DNA from: Thermoanaerobaculia bacterium
GTDB taxonomy: Bacteria > Acidobacteriota > Thermoanaerobaculia > UBA5066 > DATFVB01
Direction: 5' to 3'
DNA length: 36,404 nucleotides
Assembly: GCA_035717485.1 (NCBI GenBank)
Contig: DASTIQ010000206.1
Span: 1 to 36,404 of the forward strand
The number at the start of each line of letters is the position of its first letter. Position 1 is the stretch's first letter. Under the pieces are notes generated by a model. That model searched no databases. It was not told the DNA's origin and saw only the letters and a program-made list of their open reading frames with translations. The position numbers were made by a program, and so were the translations under genes. Below are positions 26,744 through 36,404 of this stretch, one piece after another.

Positions 26744-27817
26744 TCAGAGCCTCACCAGGCCCGCGCCCCAGTGGAGCCCCGCACCCAGGGCGGTGAAGCA
26801 GACGAGATCTCCGGGTTTCGCCTTCCCGGCCTGCTTCGCCTCGTGAAAGACGAGCGGGAGCGTCGCCGCCGTCGTGTTCCCGTAGTTCTGGATGTTGTTG
26901 AAGACCTTTTCGTCCGGCAGCCCGAGCGTCTTCTGCACCGACTCGTTGATCCGGAGATTCGCCTGGTGCATGAGAAGCAGCGAGAGGTCGTCGATGCCGA
27001 GACCGTAGGCCTCGAGGACCTCGCGCACGATCGCGGGCATCGCGGTCGTCGCGAGCTTGAAGACCTGCCGCCCCTCGACGATCGGAATCGTCGCCATGCT
27101 GGCGAACATCTCGGGCGCGAAATAGGGGAAGCACGACGAGCCTCCCGCCGGCACGTAGAGCTTGTCCCAGTGAGTGCCGTCCGTGCGCATCCGGAACCCG
27201 AGGAATCCGCGGCCGTCTCCCGTCCCGTTCGCCTCGAGGACGAAGGCCCCCGCGCCGTCGCCGAAGATGACCGCGCGGTCGCGGAGCGCCGTTCCGATCT
27301 TGAACATCTCCGGGGGAACGGCCTCGTCGGACTCTCCGAACATGACCCGCCATTCGAGGTCGGTCCACGGATAGAACGACGCATGGCATTCGGCGCCGAT
27401 CAGCAGGATCCGGCGGTACGTCCCCGAGCGGATGAACGCGTCGGCCACCTGGAGCCCGGACAGGAAGCCGGCGCACTGCATGCGGAGGTCGATCGCGTGC
27501 GTCCGCGTGAGGCCGAGTTTCGCCGCCGCGATCCCGCCGTTGCCCGGAAAGTAGTGGGCGGGCGTCATGGTCGCGAAGAGAATGAGGTCGACGTCCGATG
27601 CCTGGAGGCCCGCGTCGGCCAGGGCGGCCTTCGCCGCCTCGACGCCCAGGTCGGCCGAGGACGTTCCTTTCCGCGCGTACCGCCGCTCCCGGATCCCCGT
27701 CCGCTGCTGGATCCATTCGTCGGTCGTGTCCATCAGCCGCGACATCCGCTCGTTGGTGACGACGCCGTCGGGGAGGAACACCCCGGACCCGCGAATCACG
27801 CTCGTGGGGGAGGACAT
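26744..27817 (-). CDS. fabH: 3-oxoacyl-ACP synthase III (FabH-like)
   Basis: Thiolase-fold condensing enzyme of 357 aa. The FabH-type catalytic triad is present: Cys near residue 115 (MQCAGFLSG), His near 283 (LMHQANLRI) and Asn near 313 (NYGNTTAAT). The N-terminus (MDTTDEWIQQRTGIRERR) is typical. It is about 30-40 residues longer than E. coli FabH, with extra sequence around HASFYPWTDLEWRVMFGESD. It may start fatty-acid synthesis or serve a special acyl pathway. No other fab gene is adjacent. The ATG at 27817 is chosen because a perfect TATAAT ends six bases upstream; the frame is open further, through the trp leader region, where it is clearly not coding. Confidence 0.9.
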   Translation of the reverse strand: MSSPTSVIRGSGVFLPDGVVTNERMSRLMDTTDEWIQQRTGIRERRYARKGTSSADLGVEAAKAALADAGLQASDVDLILFATMTPAHYFPGNGGIAAAKLGLTRTHAIDLRMQCAGFLSGLQVADAFIRSGTYRRILLIGAECHASFYPWTDLEWRVMFGESDEAVPPEMFKIGTALRDRAVIFGDGAGAFVLEANGTGDGRGFLGFRMRTDGTHWDKLYVPAGGSSCFPYFAPEMFASMATIPIVEGRQVFKLATTAMPAIVREVLEAYGLGIDDLSLLLMHQANLRINESVQKTLGLPDEKVFNNIQNYGNTTAATLPLVFHEAKQAGKAKPGDLVCFTALGAGLHWGAGLVRL

Positions 27818-27823
27818 TTCGGG

Positions 27824-27829
27824 ATTATA
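27824..27829 (-). promoter_or_regulatory. -10 element of fabH, leaderless layout, facing the trp promoter
   Basis: Perfect TATAAT on the minus strand, then six bases (cccgaa) and the ATG. Its -35 region would fall around 27847-27852, inside the spacer of the trp promoter, so the two promoters overlap and should compete for polymerase. Confidence 0.7.
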
Positions 27830-27839
27830 TGAAGACGCC

Positions 27840-27868
27840 TTGACAGACCCGCGCCGCGCGTCTACAGT
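27840..27868 (+). promoter_or_regulatory. promoter of the aro-trp operon
   Basis: A perfect -35 TTGACA (27840-27845), a 17-bp spacer and -10 TACAGT (27863-27868). This is the best sigma-70 match in the window. The expected start site is at about 27875-27876, the first base of the leader-peptide GTG. No separate TrpR-type operator palindrome is obvious; control appears to lie in the leader. Confidence 0.88.
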
Positions 27869-27875
27869 CCGCTCC

Positions 27876-27929
27876 GTGAAGGTTTCCGCCTCGTCCTGCT
27901 GGTACTGGTACTGGAGCGACACCCGGTAG
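27876..27929 (+). CDS. trpL: trp leader peptide
   Basis: A short frame of 17 codons starting with GTG seven bases after the promoter -10: MKVSASSCWYWYWSDTR, stop TAG. It has three Trp codons (27900-27902, 27906-27908, 27912-27914) alternating with two Tyr codons just before a series of competing hairpins. Trp is normally the rarest residue, so three in five positions between a strong promoter and a trp operon mark a ribosome-stalling leader. The 5' leader before the GTG is at most a base or two, so it too looks leaderless. It acts in cis; the peptide itself probably has no function. Confidence 0.9.
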   Translation: MKVSASSCWYWYWSDTR

Positions 27930-28019
27930 GGCGAAGCTCGCCCTCCCGGAGGAATTCGGGCGGGGCGATCGACAGCGCGGAATGATCGAAACCCCCGGCC
28001 GACGGGGGTTTCGAATTTT
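27928..28019 (+). promoter_or_regulatory. trp attenuator: alternating hairpins after trpL
   Basis: Four stems, each excluding the next, can be drawn by eye. A: AGGGCGA with TCGCCCT (27928-27934, 27938-27944), starting on the leader stop codon. B: 27938-27948 with 27957-27968, ten pairs with one mismatch and one bulge. C, antiterminator: GGGGCGATC (27962-27970) with GATCG-aaa-CCCC (27984-27995), nine pairs. D: terminator. A ribosome stalled on the Trp codons leaves A free, so A and C form and transcription continues. A ribosome reaching the stop codon blocks A, so B and D form and transcription ends. The pairings are seen; the kinetics are inferred. Confidence 0.78.
27986..28019 (+). terminator. 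attenuator terminator hairpin
   Basis: TCGAAACCCCC (27986-27996) and GGGGGTTTCGA (28004-28014) form a perfect 11-bp stem with a 7-base loop (ggccgac), followed by ATTTTG. The T-run is short. It lies between the leader peptide and the probable aroDE start, exactly where a trp attenuator terminator belongs. Confidence 0.85.
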
Positions 28020-29511
28020 GGATCGGACTCTTCCCATCCCGGCGACGATCGCGACGCTGGCTCCCGCGAGCTTCGAGGACGCGCGCCGGCTCGCGGCTCT
28101 CGTTCCGCCGGAGGCGAACGCGATCGAGTGGCGCCTCGACCTCGCTCCGGGACGGATCTCCCCGCGCGCTCTCCTGGATCTCGATCCGCGATGCGCGATC
28201 GTGACGTATCGGACCGTGCGGGAGGGAGGCCGATTCGCCGGAAGCGCCGACGAATACCGCCGTTCCGTCGTCTCCGCCTACGAAGCGGGCGCCGTCGTCG
28301 ACGTGGAGCTCGAGAGTGGCCTCCTCGGCGACGCGGGGTTCCTTCCGGACCGGAGCCGCGTCATCGGCTCGCGCCACGGCCCGTCTCTCTCCGAAGGGCG
28401 GCTCCGGGCGTGCGTCGCGCACGACGTGGCGGCCGTGAAGCTCGTCTTGACGGACCCCGACACCGTGGCCGAGGCGATCGGGTGCGTCGAGCGCGCCCGC
28501 CGGCTCTCCCGCGAGAGACCGGTCGCCTGCTTCGCGACGGGGACCCGCGGCGCCGTGACCCGGGTGCTCGCGCCCCGGTTCGGAAGCGCTCTCACGTACG
28601 GCACCGTCGACGGCAGCGACGCGACCGGCGCCGGCCAGATCTCCCTGGGGGAGCTTCGCGCGGTGTATCGCGCGGGGGAAACGGCTCCGCCGGAGAGGCT
28701 CTTCGCGGTCTACGGGGGCGACGTCTCGGGTTCCCTTTCTCCCCGGATCCACAACGAGCTGTTTCGGCGGCGGGGACTCCCGTGGCTCTACGTTCCCCTG
28801 ACGGCGTCCCGGCGGGGCGCGGCGCGGGAGAGCCCGATCGCCGGGGACCTCATCGCGCTCGACGGGCTCTCGAGGAACCTCCACGGCGTTTCGGTGACGA
28901 ATCCGTTCAAGGGCGACTTCGCCGGCGTCGCCGAGCCCGACGCGGACACGTCGCGGATCGGGGCGGCGAACACGCTCGTCCGACGCAAGCCCGAGTGCCT
29001 CGATCTCTCGGCGCACAACACGGACCTTCGGGCGGCGCGCGAGGCCCTCGGGCGACTCGGGGGAGCGCGCGTGATGGTCGTCGGAACGGGGGGAGCGGCG
29101 CGGGCGGCGCTCGCCGCGGCGTCGTCGCTCGGCCGTGCGGCCGCGGTGGCCGGGCGCGATCGCACGAAAACCACGCTCCTCGCCGCGGAGTTCGAAGCCG
29201 ACGCCGTCGACATGAGCGAGCTCGCCTCGAAAGACGCGGACGTCTGGGTGAACGCGACGCCGCTCGGGTCCGGAGACGACGACCCGATGCCCGTGCCCGT
29301 CGGGGTTCTCCGTCCGGGAGCCGCGGTCGTCGATTTCGTTTACCGGCGCGACGGCGAAACGGCGCTCGCCCGCGAGACGCGGGCTCGCGGCGCCGCCCTC
29401 GTGGACGGACTCGAGCTCCTGGCCCGCCAGGCCGCCGGCCAGGCGGCGCTCTTCGGCGTCCCGGACGCGACGTTCGAGGAGATCGACGCGATCCTGCGAG
29501 GCGATTCGTGA
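28018..29511 (+). CDS. aroDE: bifunctional 3-dehydroquinate dehydratase / shikimate dehydrogenase
   Basis: Fusion of about 497 aa catalysing steps three and four of the shikimate pathway. The N-terminal ~215 residues are type I dehydroquinase: IEWRLD, IGSRHG with the catalytic His, VKLVLT with the Schiff-base Lys, and TGAGQIS. The C-terminal ~275 residues are AroE: SGSLSPRIHN for shikimate binding, VTNPFK with the catalytic Lys, GAANTL and HNTD (Asn/Asp), and the NADP loop VVGTGGAARAAL. Start: TTG at 28018 gives MDRTLPIPATIATL, just after the terminator. The ATG at 27982 is in frame but lies inside the attenuator and lacks a ribosome-binding site. GTGA overlap with trpE. Confidence 0.92.
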   Translation: MDRTLPIPATIATLAPASFEDARRLAALVPPEANAIEWRLDLAPGRISPRALLDLDPRCAIVTYRTVREGGRFAGSADEYRRSVVSAYEAGAVVDVELESGLLGDAGFLPDRSRVIGSRHGPSLSEGRLRACVAHDVAAVKLVLTDPDTVAEAIGCVERARRLSRERPVACFATGTRGAVTRVLAPRFGSALTYGTVDGSDATGAGQISLGELRAVYRAGETAPPERLFAVYGGDVSGSLSPRIHNELFRRRGLPWLYVPLTASRRGAARESPIAGDLIALDGLSRNLHGVSVTNPFKGDFAGVAEPDADTSRIGAANTLVRRKPECLDLSAHNTDLRAAREALGRLGGARVMVVGTGGAARAALAAASSLGRAAAVAGRDRTKTTLLAAEFEADAVDMSELASKDADVWVNATPLGSGDDDPMPVPVGVLRPGAAVVDFVYRRDGETALARETRARGAALVDGLELLARQAAGQAALFGVPDATFEEIDAILRGDS

Positions 29512-30908
29512 TCCGGGTCGCGACCCGATCGATCTCCGCGGACACGACGACCCCCGTCGCCGTGATGCGGAAGCTCCTCGCGGGCGGGGACGAGGCGTTC
29601 CTGCTCGAAAGCGTCGAGGGGGGCGCGCACCTCGCGCGCTGGTCGTTCCTCGGCGTCGCGCCGCGTGCCCGGTGCTCTTCGATCGGGGGAAGGGTGCGGC
29701 GGGAGGAAGACGGGCGCTCCGCGTGGCTCGACGAGCCTTTTCTCGACGCCGTCCAGGGGATGGCGGTCGATCCCGGATACGAGCGCGGGGAAGGCGCCCC
29801 GCCGTTCGCCGCGGGCGCGGTCGGCTACCTCGCCTACGACGCCGTACGGCTCTTCGAGAGGGTCCCGTCGCGGCACCCGCCGTCGACGGCGATGCCCGAG
29901 GCCCTCTTCCTCCTCTTCGATTCGACGATCGCCTTCGATCATGCCCGCGGCGTCATGGTCCTGCAGACCGCCGTCCGCGACGGGAAAGACGGTGCGGCGG
30001 AAGGGCGTCTCGCGGACCTCGAGCGCCGGGTCGCCGCTCCCGATCCTCCGCGTCCGAAAGGGAGTCCCGCCGCACCGCCGGCGTTCTCGGAAAGCGGCTC
30101 GCGCGACGGCTTTCTCTCCGCCGTGGCCGCGGCGAAGGAGGCGATCGCGGCCGGCGAGGTCTACCAGATCCAGATCTCGCGGCGCTGGACGTCGCCCCTC
30201 GGACTCGACGCCTTCGAGGTCTATCGCGCGCTCCGCCGGATCAACCCGTCGCCGTACCACTTCTTCCTCCGGACGCGGGAAGGGGACGTGCTCGGAGCGT
30301 CGCCGGAGATGCTCGTGCGCGTCCGCGGCGGCGCGATCGAAACGCGGCCGATCGCGGGCACCTACCCGCGCGGCGCCACGGCCGCCGAGGACCGCGCGCT
30401 CGAGGAGCGTTTCCTGGCCGACCCGAAGGAGCGCGCGGAGCACGTGATGCTCGTCGATCTCGCCCGCAACGACCTCGGGCGCGTCTGCGAGACGGGCTCC
30501 GTATCGGTCCCGGAGTTCTTCACCGTGGAAAAATACTCGCACGTGCAGCACCTCGTCTCCTCGGTCACGGGGCGCCTCCTCCCGGGGGTCTCCGCGCTCC
30601 GCGCGCTGGCGGCGTCCTTTCCGGCGGGCACCCTCACGGGAGCGCCGAAGATCCGCGCGATGGAGCTGATCGACGAGCTCGAGCCGTGGCGGCGCGGGAT
30701 CTACGGGGGGGCCGTCGGCTATCTCGACCTCTCCGGAGACCTCGATTCGGCGATCGCGATCCGGACGATGGTCGTCGAGAACGGGGTCGCGCGCGTCCAG
30801 GCGGCGGCGGGAATCGTCGCCGACTCGGATCCCGAGCGGGAAGCCCGGGAAACGGAGATCAAGTCGGGCGCCCTCTTCCGGGCGGCCGAAGCGGCGGGCC
30901 GGCCATGA
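29508..30908 (+). CDS. trpE: anthranilate synthase component I
   Basis: Chorismate-using subunit of 466 aa; with TrpG it makes anthranilate. The N-terminal LLES (residues 32-35) is the Trp-binding feedback motif, so allosteric inhibition by tryptophan is expected. The chorismate-binding domain shows EVYQIQISRRW, SPEMLVRV, TRPIAGTYPRGAT, LVDLARNDLGRVC, and PAGTLTGAPKIRAMELIDELE near the C-terminus. It is somewhat shorter than the usual 490-520 aa. The GTG start overlaps the aroDE stop, and its stop overlaps the trpG ATG. PabB is the alternative name, but the operon context and the LLES motif favour TrpE. Confidence 0.95.
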   Translation: MIRVATRSISADTTTPVAVMRKLLAGGDEAFLLESVEGGAHLARWSFLGVAPRARCSSIGGRVRREEDGRSAWLDEPFLDAVQGMAVDPGYERGEGAPPFAAGAVGYLAYDAVRLFERVPSRHPPSTAMPEALFLLFDSTIAFDHARGVMVLQTAVRDGKDGAAEGRLADLERRVAAPDPPRPKGSPAAPPAFSESGSRDGFLSAVAAAKEAIAAGEVYQIQISRRWTSPLGLDAFEVYRALRRINPSPYHFFLRTREGDVLGASPEMLVRVRGGAIETRPIAGTYPRGATAAEDRALEERFLADPKERAEHVMLVDLARNDLGRVCETGSVSVPEFFTVEKYSHVQHLVSSVTGRLLPGVSALRALAASFPAGTLTGAPKIRAMELIDELEPWRRGIYGGAVGYLDLSGDLDSAIAIRTMVVENGVARVQAAAGIVADSDPEREARETEIKSGALFRAAEAAGRP

Positions 30909-31477
30909 TCCTCGTCGTGGACAACTACGACTCCTTCACCTGGAATCTCGTCCAGGCGATCGCCGCCTTCGATCCTGACGTCCGGGTGGTGAGAAACGAC
31001 GCGTTCGACCCGGCGGAAGAGCTCGCGCGGGGGCCGGCGGGCGTCGTCGTCTCGCCGGGACCCGGAACGCCCGAGAAGGCGGGCCGATCGATCGAGACGA
31101 TCCGGGCCGCGGAGGAGCGCGGGATCCCGATCCTCGGCGTCTGCCTCGGGCACCAGGCGATCGCGGTCGCGCACGGCGCCGTCGTCGATCGCGCGCCCGT
31201 CCTCATGCACGGCAAGACGTCGCGCATCTCCCACGAATCGGCCGGCATCTTCCGGGGACTCTCGCGCCCGTTCGAGGCCACGCGGTACCACTCGCTCGCG
31301 GTGCGCGAAGAGACGCTCCCGCCGGAGCTCGAAGTCGTCGCCCGGTCGGAGGACGGGATCGTGATGGGGCTTCGCCACCGATCCCTTCCGGTCTGGGGCG
31401 TGCAGTTCCATCCCGAATCGATCCTCTCCGTCGAAGGACCGAAGCTGATCGAGAACTTCGTGCGGGGCGCGGCGTGA
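30905..31477 (+). CDS. trpG: anthranilate synthase component II (glutamine amidotransferase)
   Basis: Class I glutamine amidotransferase of 190 aa that supplies ammonia to TrpE. It has the N-terminal VVDNYDSFTWNLVQ, the oxyanion strand SPGPGTPEKAG, the nucleophile Cys80 in GVCLGHQ, and the catalytic His-Glu pair in VQFHPES. It is a free-standing subunit, not fused to TrpE or TrpD. ATGA overlap with trpE and GTGA overlap with trpD. Confidence 0.95.
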   Translation: MILVVDNYDSFTWNLVQAIAAFDPDVRVVRNDAFDPAEELARGPAGVVVSPGPGTPEKAGRSIETIRAAEERGIPILGVCLGHQAIAVAHGAVVDRAPVLMHGKTSRISHESAGIFRGLSRPFEATRYHSLAVREETLPPELEVVARSEDGIVMGLRHRSLPVWGVQFHPESILSVEGPKLIENFVRGAA

Positions 31478-32487
31478 GCGTCGCCGAGGCCCTCCGCCGG
31501 CTCGCCGACCGACGTCCGATCTCGGCGGCCGAGGCGCGCGACGCGTTCTTCGAACTGATGGAAGGGCGGGCGACCGAATCGCAGAAGGGCGCCCTGCTCC
31601 TCGGTCTCGCCTCGCGCGGCGAGACGCCGGAGGAGCTCGCCGGCGCGGTCGGAGCGGTGCGGGAGAAGATGCGGCGCGTCGAGGCGCGGCGGCGCCCCCT
31701 CCTCGATACGTGCGGGACGGGAGGGCACGGCCGAAGAACGGTCAACGTGTCGACGGCGGCCGCCTTCGCGTGCGCCGGCGCGGGAACCGCCGTCGCCAAG
31801 CACGGCAATCGCTCGGCGACCCGCTGCGGCTCCGCGGACGTCCTCGAGGCGCTCGGGGTCCCGATCGACAAGTCCCCCGGGGACGCGGGCGCGGAGCTCG
31901 ACCGGACCGGCTTCACTTTCCTGTTCGCGCCGGCGTTCCATCCCGCCATGCGCGAGGTCGCTCCGGCCCGGCGGGAGCTCGGCGTGCGGACCATCTTCAA
32001 CCTGATCGGTCCTCTCGCCAATCCCGCGGGCGCGACGCGGCAACTGATCGGCGTGAGCCGCTTCGACGTCGCCCGCCTCCTCGCGGAGGCGCTGGCGATG
32101 CTCGGCACGGAACGGGCGATCGTCTTCCATTCGGAAAACGGCCTCGACGAGCTCACCCCGGGGGTCGCCGCGATCGGCTTCGAGGTGCGGCCGGGACGGG
32201 CGATCTCGTGGCGGTTCGATGCCGGCGTCCTCGCGCAGCGGCCGGTGACGGTCGAGGAGCTCTCCGGCGGGGGGGCGGCGGAGAACGCGGAGGTCCTCCG
32301 GCGGGTGCTCGCGGGCGCGCGCGGCCCCGTCCGGGAAACCGTGCTCCTGAACGCCGCGATGGCTCTCTGGATCGCCGAGTCGGCGCCGACGCTGCACGAG
32401 GCCTACGATCTGGCGGCGTCCTCGATCGACTCGGGCCGGGCCGCGTCGATTCTCGAGGGGGCGCGGTCCTCCGGAGGAGCCGCGTGA
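31474..32487 (+). CDS. trpD: anthranilate phosphoribosyltransferase
   Basis: Enzyme of 337 aa that joins anthranilate to PRPP. The family motifs are intact: DTCGTGGHG for the PRPP pyrophosphate loop, NVSTAAAF, KHGNRSATRCGSADVLEALG for the anthranilate/metal region, NLIGPLANPA, and a DELTP motif (LDELTPG). Length is standard. The GTG start lies in a GTGA overlap with trpG, and the end overlaps trpC in the same way. Confidence 0.96.
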   Translation: MSVAEALRRLADRRPISAAEARDAFFELMEGRATESQKGALLLGLASRGETPEELAGAVGAVREKMRRVEARRRPLLDTCGTGGHGRRTVNVSTAAAFACAGAGTAVAKHGNRSATRCGSADVLEALGVPIDKSPGDAGAELDRTGFTFLFAPAFHPAMREVAPARRELGVRTIFNLIGPLANPAGATRQLIGVSRFDVARLLAEALAMLGTERAIVFHSENGLDELTPGVAAIGFEVRPGRAISWRFDAGVLAQRPVTVEELSGGGAAENAEVLRRVLAGARGPVRETVLLNAAMALWIAESAPTLHEAYDLAASSIDSGRAASILEGARSSGGAA

Positions 32488-33257
32488 GCGGGATCCTCGG
32501 GGAGATCGCGGCGTCCGTCCGCTCCCGGCTCGCGGCGGGCGCCTACCGGCCCGCGGAAGGCCGCGGCCCCGGCCCGAACGGCAGCCGGTTCGCGGCCTCT
32601 CTCCGGGAACCGGGAACGCGCGTGATCGCCGAGCTCAAGCAACGCTCGCCGTCGGCCGGGGAGATCTGCCCGCACCTCGACCGGAAGGTCGAGACGCTCG
32701 CCCTCGCCTATCGGCGCGGCCACGCCGCCGCGATCTCGGTCGTCACGGAACCGGAGTTCTTCGGAGGGAAAGCCGAGTGGATCGCGAGAGCGAAGCGGAT
32801 GTCCGGCCTTCCCGTGCTGATGAAGGACTTCGTCCTGGCCGAGGAGCAGCTCGATTTCGCGGCGTCGTCGGGCGCGGACGCGGTGCTCCTCATCGCGGCG
32901 CTCCTCGACGGCCCGGCGCTCGCGCGGCTTCGTTCCGCGGCGGAAGCGCGGGGTCTCGCGGCCCTCGTCGAGGTCCACGACGCCGGCGAAATCGCGCGCG
33001 CCGCCGCCGCCGGCGCGTCGATCGTCGGGGTGAACGCCCGGGACCTCCGCTCCTTCGAGGTCGATCGGGAAGGCGCCGCAGAGCTCGCGGCGGCGATCCC
33101 GGCCGGCGTCCTGCGCGTGGCGGAGAGCGGAATCCGGACGCGGGAGGACGTCGAGCGCCTCTCGGCCGCCGGGTTCACCGCGTTTCTCGTCGGCGAGACG
33201 CTTCTTCGCTCCGAGGATCCGGAGGAAACGCTTCGCTCGCTCCGGGGGACGGCGTGA
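32484..33257 (+). CDS. trpC: indole-3-glycerol-phosphate synthase
   Basis: TIM-barrel enzyme of 257 aa that closes the indole ring. Catalytic and binding residues are visible: IAELKQRSPSAG (Lys and the SPS loop), VLMKDFVL (Lys), ALVEVHD (Glu), VGVNARDL (Asn) and RVAESGIRT (Ser, phosphate site). It is not fused to TrpF. The GTG start overlaps the trpD stop by four bases. Confidence 0.95.
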   Translation: MSGILGEIAASVRSRLAAGAYRPAEGRGPGPNGSRFAASLREPGTRVIAELKQRSPSAGEICPHLDRKVETLALAYRRGHAAAISVVTEPEFFGGKAEWIARAKRMSGLPVLMKDFVLAEEQLDFAASSGADAVLLIAALLDGPALARLRSAAEARGLAALVEVHDAGEIARAAAAGASIVGVNARDLRSFEVDREGAAELAAAIPAGVLRVAESGIRTREDVERLSAAGFTAFLVGETLLRSEDPEETLRSLRGTA

Positions 33258-33865
33258 CGCGCATCAAGATCTGCGGACTCACCCGGAGCGAGGACGTCGC
33301 GCTCTGCGTCGCGCTCGGGGCGGATTACCTGGGGTTCAACTTCTCGCCGCGAAGCCCGCGTCGCGCGGCGGTCGAGGACGGGCCGAAGCTCCTCGCCGCG
33401 TCGGAGGGGCGCCCCCGGGTCGGGGTCTTCGTGGAGGAAGGCCCCGAAGCGGTTCGGCGCGCGATCGACGCGCTGGACCTCGACTTCCTGCAGTTCCATC
33501 GGCCGCTCCGGGACGACGACTTCGCCTTCGGTCTCCCGGTGATCGCGGTCGAGCGCGTGTTCGGCCGGATCCCGGCCCCGCGGACGCCTTTCGCGCGCTG
33601 CCACGCCGTTCTCTACGACACGGGTCACCCGGCGCTCGACGGCGGGACGGGCATGACGTTCGACTCGAACGGGCTCGCCGCGCGGGACCGCGGGATCCCC
33701 GTCGGTCTCGCGGGCGGGCTTCGTCCGGAGAACGTCGCCGAAGCGATCCGGGCGGCTCGTCCGTTCCTCGTCGACGTCGCGAGCGGAGTGGAGTCGTCGC
33801 CGGGGGTGAAGGATCCGTCCCGGCTCCGCGCGTTCTTCGCGGCCGTCCGGAGGGCGGATGGCTGA
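33254..33865 (+). CDS. trpF: phosphoribosylanthranilate isomerase
   Basis: TIM-barrel isomerase of 203 aa. The catalytic Cys is in IKICGLTR at the N-terminus and the catalytic Asp in LYDTG; the phosphate site is [14 protein letters not shown] near the C-terminus. The substrate arrives from TrpD and the product goes to TrpC. GTG start in a GTGA overlap with trpC. Its last eight bases overlap the start of trpB. Confidence 0.94.
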
Positions 33866-35033
33866 GCGCGCGTACTTCGGCGCGTACGGCGGCACGTTCG
33901 CCCCCGAGACGCTCATGGCGCCCCTCGTCGAGCTCGCCGAAGCCTTCGACGAGGCGCGGCGGGATTCGGGATTCCGCGCGGAGCTGGACGGCGCGCTCCG
34001 GGACTACGCCGGACGCCCGACGGCCCTTTTCTTCGCGCGCCGGCTCTCGGAGGACGCGGGAGGGGCGCGAATCCTCTTCAAGCGCGAGGATCTCCTGCAC
34101 ACCGGAGCCCACAAGATCAACAACGCGATCGGCCAGGGGCTGCTGGCGCGCCGGATGGGGAAGACGCGTCTCATCGCCGAGACGGGAGCGGGGCAGCACG
34201 GCGTCGCGACGGCGACCGTCGCGGCGTGGCTCGGGTTCGAGAGCGTCGTGTACATGGGATCGGAGGATGCGCGGCGCCAGGCGGTCAACGTCGCGCGAAT
34301 GCGGCGGCTGGGAGCGGACGTCCGGACCGTCGATGCCGGATCGCGGACGCTGAAGGACGCGATCAACGAGGCGATGCGGGACTGGTCGGCGACCTCCGCG
34401 ACGTCGCACTACGTCCTCGGCTCGGCTCTCGGCCCGCATCCGTATCCCACGATGGTCGCCTGGTTCCACCGGGCGATCGGCCGCGAGGCGCGAGCCCAGA
34501 CCCTGCGCCGGTGGAAGAAGCTCCCGAAGGCGGTCGTCGCGTGCGTCGGCGGCGGGTCGAACGCGATCGGGATCTTCCAGGCTTTCCTGCGGGACCGCGT
34601 TCGCCTCGTCGGCGTCGAGGCGGGGGGGCGCGGGACCGCGCTCGGCGACCACGCCGCCCGGTTCGCGGGCGGGAAGGTCGGGATCCTCCACGGAACGAAG
34701 ACCTGGGTCCTCCAGGATCGGGAAGGGCAGATCGCGGCGACCCATTCCGTCTCCGCGGGACTCGACTATCCCGCCGTCGGCCCGCAGCATGCGGCGCTGC
34801 GCGACGCGCGGCGCGTCGAATACGTGTCGGCCTCGGACTCGGAGGCGCTCGACGCGTTCGACCGGACGACGCGGCTGGAGGGGATCGTCCCCGCGCTCGA
34901 GTCCGCGCACGCGATCGCGTTCGCGCGGAAGCTCGCGCCCTCGCTTCGAAAGAGCGATCTGATCCTCGTCAATCTCTCCGGGAGGGGGGACAAGGACCTG
35001 CCGGAGGTCGAGCGGATCGAGAGGGGATCGTGA
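33858..35033 (+). CDS. trpB: tryptophan synthase beta chain
   Basis: PLP enzyme of 391 aa that condenses indole with serine. It is the TrpB1 type: N-terminal [15 protein letters not shown], the PLP Lys in [13 protein letters not shown], the catalytic Glu in [13 protein letters not shown], and the phosphate loop GGGSNAIG. C-terminal LSGRGDKD is typical. The ATG is inside trpF (8-base overlap); the stop overlaps the trpA GTG. Confidence 0.97.
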
Positions 35034-35854
35034 AGTCGAGCGGGCGAGTCGCCGCGGCCTTCGCTCGGGCCGAGGGGGAGGAACGCGCCGCGTTCGTCGC
35101 CTATCTCACGGCCGGAGATCCCGACCTCCGCGCGACCGTCGAGCTCGCGCGCGCGGTCGAGGCCGCCGGAGCCGACGTCCTCGAGCTCGGCGTTCCCTTC
35201 TCCGATCCGATCGCGGACGGGGCGACGCTCCAGCGCGCGGCCGCCCGAGCGCTCGCCTCCGGGACGACGCTCGACGGCGTCTTCGCCGCCGCCGCCGAGA
35301 TCCGGGCGAAGACCGACCTCCCGCTCCTCCTGTTCTCGTACGCCAACCCGCTCTGCGCGCGAGGGTTCGGGCGCGCCTTCCGGGAAGCGGCCTCCGCGGG
35401 GTTCGACGCCCTTCTCCTGACGGACGTGCCGGCGGAGGAGTCGGACGCGGTGCTCCCGGATGTCGCCCGGGCGGGGCTCGATCCCGTTCTGCTCGTCTCG
35501 CCGACCTCGGACGCGGGAAGGATGCGCGCCGCGGCGGAACGGTCGCGCGGGTTCCTCTACGTCGTCTCGCGAACCGGCACGACCGGGGAACGCGCCCGCC
35601 TCGCGGAGGATCTCCAGCGGACCGTCGCGCGCGCGCGCCGCGCGGCGGACGCGGAGCGCGGGGACCGCGGAACGCTTCCCATCGCGGTGGGATTCGGGAT
35701 CGCTTCCGCGGAGGACGCCCGCCGCGTCGCGGCGATCGCCGACGGCGTCGTCGTGGGCTCGGCCCTCGTCGCCTGCGCGGAAAGCGGGGGCGCCCGGGCC
35801 GCCTCCGCCGTCGAAACGCTCGCGCGTTCCCTCGCGGAGGCCTGTCGGCGATGA
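35030..35854 (+). CDS. trpA: tryptophan synthase alpha chain
   Basis: TIM-barrel subunit of 274 aa that releases indole from indole-glycerol phosphate. The catalytic Glu and Asp are in [14 protein letters not shown], and the loop-6 region reads [11 protein letters not shown]. The segment [21 protein letters not shown] suggests a slightly longer loop before the last strands. The GTG start overlaps the trpB stop, and the end overlaps the chorismate mutase ATG. Confidence 0.95.
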
Positions 35855-36129: not shown

Positions 36130-36404
36130 TCGTGATGAGCCCGGCCGCGACCGAGCAGGAGCTGGATGCGGTGGTCGCGCGTCTCGTCGAGAAGGGCTTC
36201 GACGTCCATCGTTCGACGGGCGCCGAGCGCACGGTCCTCGGCGCCGTCGGCCACGTGCAGAACAGCGATCCCCGGTTCTTCGAGGACATGGCCGGCGTCT
36301 CGGGAGTCGTGCGGATCACCGAGCCCTTCAAGCTCGCCGGCCGGACGTTCCAGCCGCGGGACTCCGTCGTCCCGGTGCGCGGCGTGCCGGTCGGCGGAGA
36401 CGAG
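36123..36404 (+). CDS. aroF: DAHP synthase, type I-beta (partial, runs off the window)
   Basis: The first 94 residues of 3-deoxy-7-phosphoheptulonate synthase, the entry step of the shikimate pathway. The visible part is the N-terminal ferredoxin-like (ACT-like) domain found in Thermotoga-type enzymes: MLIVMSPAATEQELDAVV, then ERTVLGAVGHVQ, VVRITEPFKLAGRTF and VVPVRGVPVGG. In relatives this domain mediates feedback control by Tyr or Phe. The catalytic barrel lies beyond the window. The ATG is inside the chorismate mutase gene. Confidence 0.85.
   Translation, partial: MLIVMSPAATEQELDAVVARLVEKGFDVHRSTGAERTVLGAVGHVQNSDPRFFEDMAGVSGVVRITEPFKLAGRTFQPRDSVVPVRGVPVGGDE

Follow-up and report, generated by a model that had tools for sequence, protein, structure and literature searches.

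The window analyzed here is a 36,404 nt stretch that makes up contig C206 of a Thermoanaerobaculia bacterium assembly (3.8 Mb in 339 contigs). It carries an operon in the order aroDE-trpE-trpG-trpD-trpC-trpF-trpB-trpA, preceded by a promoter, a short Trp-rich ORF and a succession of overlapping predicted helices:

27840-27868, plus strand: sigma-70-type promoter TTGACA-17-TACAGT (TTGACA at 27840-27845, TACAGT at 27863-27868)
27876-27929, plus strand: leader peptide ORF by direct reading, VKVSASSCWYWYWSDTR and a stop codon
27891-27934, plus strand: helix 0, 27891-27902 pairing with 27923-27934 in the unconstrained MFE fold; resembles the classic 1:2 type
27923-27949, plus strand: stem A (core 27928-27944), starting at the leader stop codon
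27938-27968, plus strand: stem B, excluding A and C; in the MFE fold and the fold of the stop-codon state
27962-27996, plus strand: stem C, predicted antiterminator (GGGGC..CCCC plus GATC/GATC); in the fold of the stalled state
27986-28019, plus strand: stem D, predicted intrinsic terminator with U-run; GGGGG in its 3′ arm (28004-28008) is the likely aroDE ribosome-binding site
28018-29511, plus strand: aroDE fusion (3-dehydroquinate dehydratase/shikimate dehydrogenase), with a conserved TTG start at 28018 directly 3′ of the terminator
29508-30908, plus strand: trpE
30905-31477, plus strand: trpG
31474-32487, plus strand: trpD
32480-33257, plus strand: trpC (approximate start)
33250-33865, plus strand: trpF (approximate start)
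33858-35033, plus strand: trpB
35030-35854, plus strand: trpA (approximate start)

The promoter is the sole sigma-70-type match between 27700 and 28100, where shuffled sequences are expected to give 0.1. As 7 nt separate its −10 element from the leader GTG, and the spacing is about 7-9 nt in the homologous leaders inspected, the leader mRNA is probably leaderless. The leader comprises 17 codons from GTG 27876 to TAG 27927-27929, with Trp at codons 9, 11 and 13 (27900-27902, 27906-27908 and 27912-27914) and Tyr at codons 10 and 12. An earlier note on this DNA had described the promoter, a 17-codon peptide with three Trp codons, and stems A to D with successive ones sharing bases; we found the promoter and the ORF where it had placed them, and the stems as it had described. 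A fabH-type ketoacyl synthase gene lies on the minus strand at 26744-27832, between cysS and the leader, and looks like an insertion at this locus because, in several relatives of families f2 and f3, the leader follows cysS with no gene in between. In the congener G192, the fabH contig diverges ahead of the leader, and a trpE fragment is found at the edge of another contig. Downstream of trpA, 36130-36404 was assigned by eye as the DAHP-synthase-like start of another aromatic-pathway gene, which is ended by the contig edge.

Leader homologues stand directly before aroDE-trp in three other genera of the same order, which belong to family f3 (G278, G297 and G298). Their peptides, MILRQSVSNWRWREATR, MIGRSVLCWREGNR and MTTSLSSFSWWRLEKRR, contain 1-2 Trp codons each, and all three leaders share the TAG in stem A, the A-D layout and the TTG start of aroDE. 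The block GGTAGGGCG..CGCCCT.CC..CGG.CGGGGCG, which contains the leader stop, is near-invariant in the four genera, and the f3 terminators end in GGGGGTTTT(T). The aroDE TTG is located 8-9 nt 3′ of GGGGG in all four genera. It is the earliest start available to two of the three relatives, which have no in-frame start codon ahead of it; on these grounds, an alternative aroDE start at ATG 27982, within stem C, was rejected. When 149 genomes of the class were searched with the covariance model R1, strong matches (E≤1e-12) were restricted to the window and the three f3 genomes, the next match being at 0.014. Therefore, sequence homology alone misses the wider family, which was found by scanning upstream of aroDE. 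The AroDE scan of named genomes returned none with one query and only the three f3 relatives with four queries.

In the sister family f2, 13 genomes carry a leader with both His and Trp codons ahead of aroDE, e.g., MIFISRHWHVHHS, MTFAPVLWHWHHA and MFLTSWHWHWHHG. The operon of one of them (G055) reads aroDE-hisZ-hisG-hisD-hisC-hisB-hisH-hisA-hisF-hisIE-trpE-trpG. Despite the different sequence, the f2 layout is that of the window: a hairpin at the stop codon, two overlapping helices and a terminator. In eight f2 relatives, 90% of the cells in stem A are paired versus 21-59% when the stem is slid, and two pairs show two-sided changes; these counts were made from eight leaders as the alignment of all 13 was misaligned at stem A. 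According to the earlier note, homologous leaders that lacked Trp codons or compensatory changes would speak against attenuation. Trp codons are present in the three f3 genera and compensatory changes in stem A of f2, leaving the proposal unrefuted.

The whole leader of the window folds with z = −3.7, and none of 200 dinucleotide shuffles was equally stable. The predicted antiterminator and intrinsic terminator are mutually exclusive and lie ahead of the first gene. Across leaders, the full A-B-C-D chain is present in 45 of 58 and reaches p≤0.05 in 22, versus about 3 expected, although these p-values are not independent because the leaders are related by descent; the chain was not found in G303. 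We then folded the RNA with the ribosome masked, setting its edge 12 nt beyond the first base of the A-site codon; this calculation represents thermodynamics alone, with cotranscriptional folding outside the model. When the ribosome is placed at the last Trp codon (edge at about 27923), the rest of the RNA adopts stems A and C. Moving the ribosome to the stop codon gives B, and the 5′ arm of the terminator stays free. In the window, the 5′ arm of D is sequestered to 0.74 in the stalled state versus 0.34 at the stop, a difference of 0.41 (p=0.03 against shuffles). The mean change over 17 leaders is 0.249 versus 0.012 in shuffles, a value reached by none of 200 shuffled sets, while G303 and several other leaders give no clear predicted switch. 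Thus, the dependence of the fold on ribosome position anticipated by the earlier note, antitermination at the Trp codons and termination at the stop, is predicted in silico by masked folding.

These results suggest the following sequence of events. Transcription would begin at or beside GTG 27876 and yield a leaderless mRNA. A ribosome awaiting Trp-tRNA at codons 9-13 would reach to about nt 27923, just 5′ of stem A, so that A could form and exclude B; C would then capture the 5′ arm of D, and RNA polymerase would read through. A ribosome at the stop codon would break A, so that B and D could form and transcription would end. Helix 0 joins the Trp-codon region to the 5′ arm of stem A, and in an untranslated leader it should likewise favor B and D. 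This helix is predicted in the window only, and the predicted folds of the three f3 relatives have none. The note had set the first stem at the stop codon rather than in the Trp codons; stem A is indeed so placed, but the fifth helix predicted in the window lies partly in the Trp-codon region.

Stem D may have a second role. A purine block (GGGGG, GGAGG or similar, often the full GGAGG) is present in the 3′ arm of the terminator in about 36 of 44 leaders, mostly 6-10 nt ahead of an in-frame start. Because this arm carries the likely aroDE ribosome-binding site, hairpin D probably also stops translation from TTG 28018 on transcripts that escape termination, and termination and aroDE translation are probably shut off together. 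This arrangement, together with the short U-run of the window (ATTTT) and a report of regulation by SD sequestration in actinobacterial T-boxes (PMC1262725), favors a mainly translational control in which leader stalling gates aroDE through the buried ribosome-binding site and termination is weak. We consider this improbable, as the relatives have strong GGGGGTTTTT terminator tails and a U-run after the stem is unneeded for such control.

The scan of the phylum extends the comparison beyond the order. Short Trp/His-rich ORFs, picked by their Trp/His content, precede 43 of 93 aroDE genes on the sense strand versus 2 of 93 on the antisense strand. In most of the sampled relatives, the leader heads an aroDE-his-trp superoperon and mixes His and Trp codons. 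To relate codons to operon content, we chose leaders by Trp codons alone, blind to His: at least two His codons occur at 24 of 26 loci where three or more his genes follow versus 2 of 20 where fewer do (Fisher P=1e-8, with related loci taken as independent). This choice supersedes an earlier hand-picked table (25/25 versus 0/17), which omitted exceptions. The exceptions are G313, with His codons and no his genes on its contig, and G397, with HHHH and one hisD-like gene. G262, G405 and G067 have one His codon and partial his sets, and start codons are uncertain in G314, G313, G361 and G152. At two loci, L251 (G262, about 2326) and L281 (G405, about 2358), a lone hisD-like gene separates aroDE from trpE, with no other his genes.

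The Trp-only leader of the window fits a lineage seemingly devoid of histidine synthesis, because hisD and hisF were not found there. The f3 leaders are Trp-only as well. The hisD profile had no match in the window genome (G000) or in G192, G278, G297 and G298, whereas both f2 controls matched. The hisF profile gave nothing above the cut-off and at most weak partial matches in the same five genomes, and hisF is present in two f2 genomes. As these five genomes, from families f1 and f3, are 92-97% complete, loss of histidine synthesis in both families is probable. In a separate group of Acidobacteriota, aroDE-trp is preceded by NWWWFFYFTNLSEEAAVRA-like leaders that contain Trp, Phe and Tyr codons (L276 in G041, L277 in G253, L273, L274 and L278-L280). 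The stop-codon hairpin chain was not found in this group, whose leaders perhaps sense all three aromatic amino acids through another layout.

The leader might instead be a constitutive terminator accompanied by an incidental short ORF, with the operon controlled by other means. The weak U-run of the window is compatible with this, as is its A-B-C-D chain, which by itself reaches p=0.06 (100 dinucleotide shuffles, stop codon to terminator). This explanation is very unlikely, given that peptide and stems are conserved in several genera, that codons match operon content and that sense ORFs exceed antisense ORFs. The chance that a T-box, a riboswitch or another element of the Rfam type stands in place of a leader peptide is negligible, since no Rfam family reaches its gathering score in the window, and the Rfam models, including the Trp and His leaders, gave no credible match in the window leader (E≤10) or in seven related loci (E≤5).

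We therefore interpret the region as a ribosome-mediated attenuator that governs transcription of the aroDE-trpEGDCFBA operon, very probably turning it off when Trp is abundant, and assign this reading a probability of about 0.88 from sequence and modeling. The scheme of the earlier note, Trp attenuation by four exclusive hairpins of which the first lies at the leader stop, is supported by the homologous leaders, the f2 leaders that keep the layout in a different sequence, the compensatory changes in stem A of f2 and masked folding, with comparison among leaders carrying most of the weight. The note made no mention of helix 0, the buried ribosome-binding site, the probable leaderless start or the His/Trp family. 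It also seems fairly likely that, in the wider family, one leader peptide senses both His and Trp to control an aroDE-his-trp superoperon of 16 to 17 genes, by way of a chain of four helices in which the terminator also sequesters the ribosome-binding site of the first gene, and that lineages losing histidine synthesis, such as that of the window, shed the His codons while retaining a switch for Trp only. A leader-peptide attenuator can be traced across much of Acidobacteriota with regulatory codons that follow the controlled genes, His codons having been lost in lineages that lack histidine genes. How a regulatory peptide evolves can therefore be put to a direct test. The comparison further suggests that a single switch responds to two amino acids, perhaps acting on transcription and translation together.

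Ribosome-mediated attenuation is a classic mechanism. Like the E. coli trp leader, the leader described here combines a short peptide containing Trp codons with mutually exclusive hairpins and, as predicted, read-through upon stalling. It differs in having two more exclusive helices, a first conserved stem at the stop codon, a probable leaderless GTG start and a terminator that contains the putative ribosome-binding site of a TTG-started aroDE, and it matches no Rfam model. The earlier note had stressed an extra switch element relative to E. coli; extra helices are present, but they are not unprecedented. The enteric his leader likewise has an extra hairpin, between the pause hairpin and the terminator, which was proposed to lower basal read-through (PMC1183508); that leader has His codons only, and the Rfam search gave no match to it here. 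Among attenuator variants, 'chains of RNA helices' are also mentioned, as is an overlap with the ribosome-binding site (PMC4833913). The probably leaderless layout resembles that of Sinorhizobium meliloti trpL (rnTrpL), whose RNA starts at the ATG of a 14-codon peptide (PMC7298713); this alphaproteobacterial system controls trpE(G), and the part of the report available describes two exclusive structures and no four-stem chain. Outside Proteobacteria, Corynebacterium and Streptomyces trp attenuators also pair a Trp leader peptide with a terminator (PMC1262725), in another phylum and operon and, in the portion of that report consulted, with no His codons reported. The open-access literature, to which our search was confined, yielded no report of a leader that mixes His and Trp codons, nor of such a system in Acidobacteria. 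The attenuator is thus known in kind; its phylum, its codon mix and its operon are new, as is a terminator that overlaps the putative ribosome-binding site.
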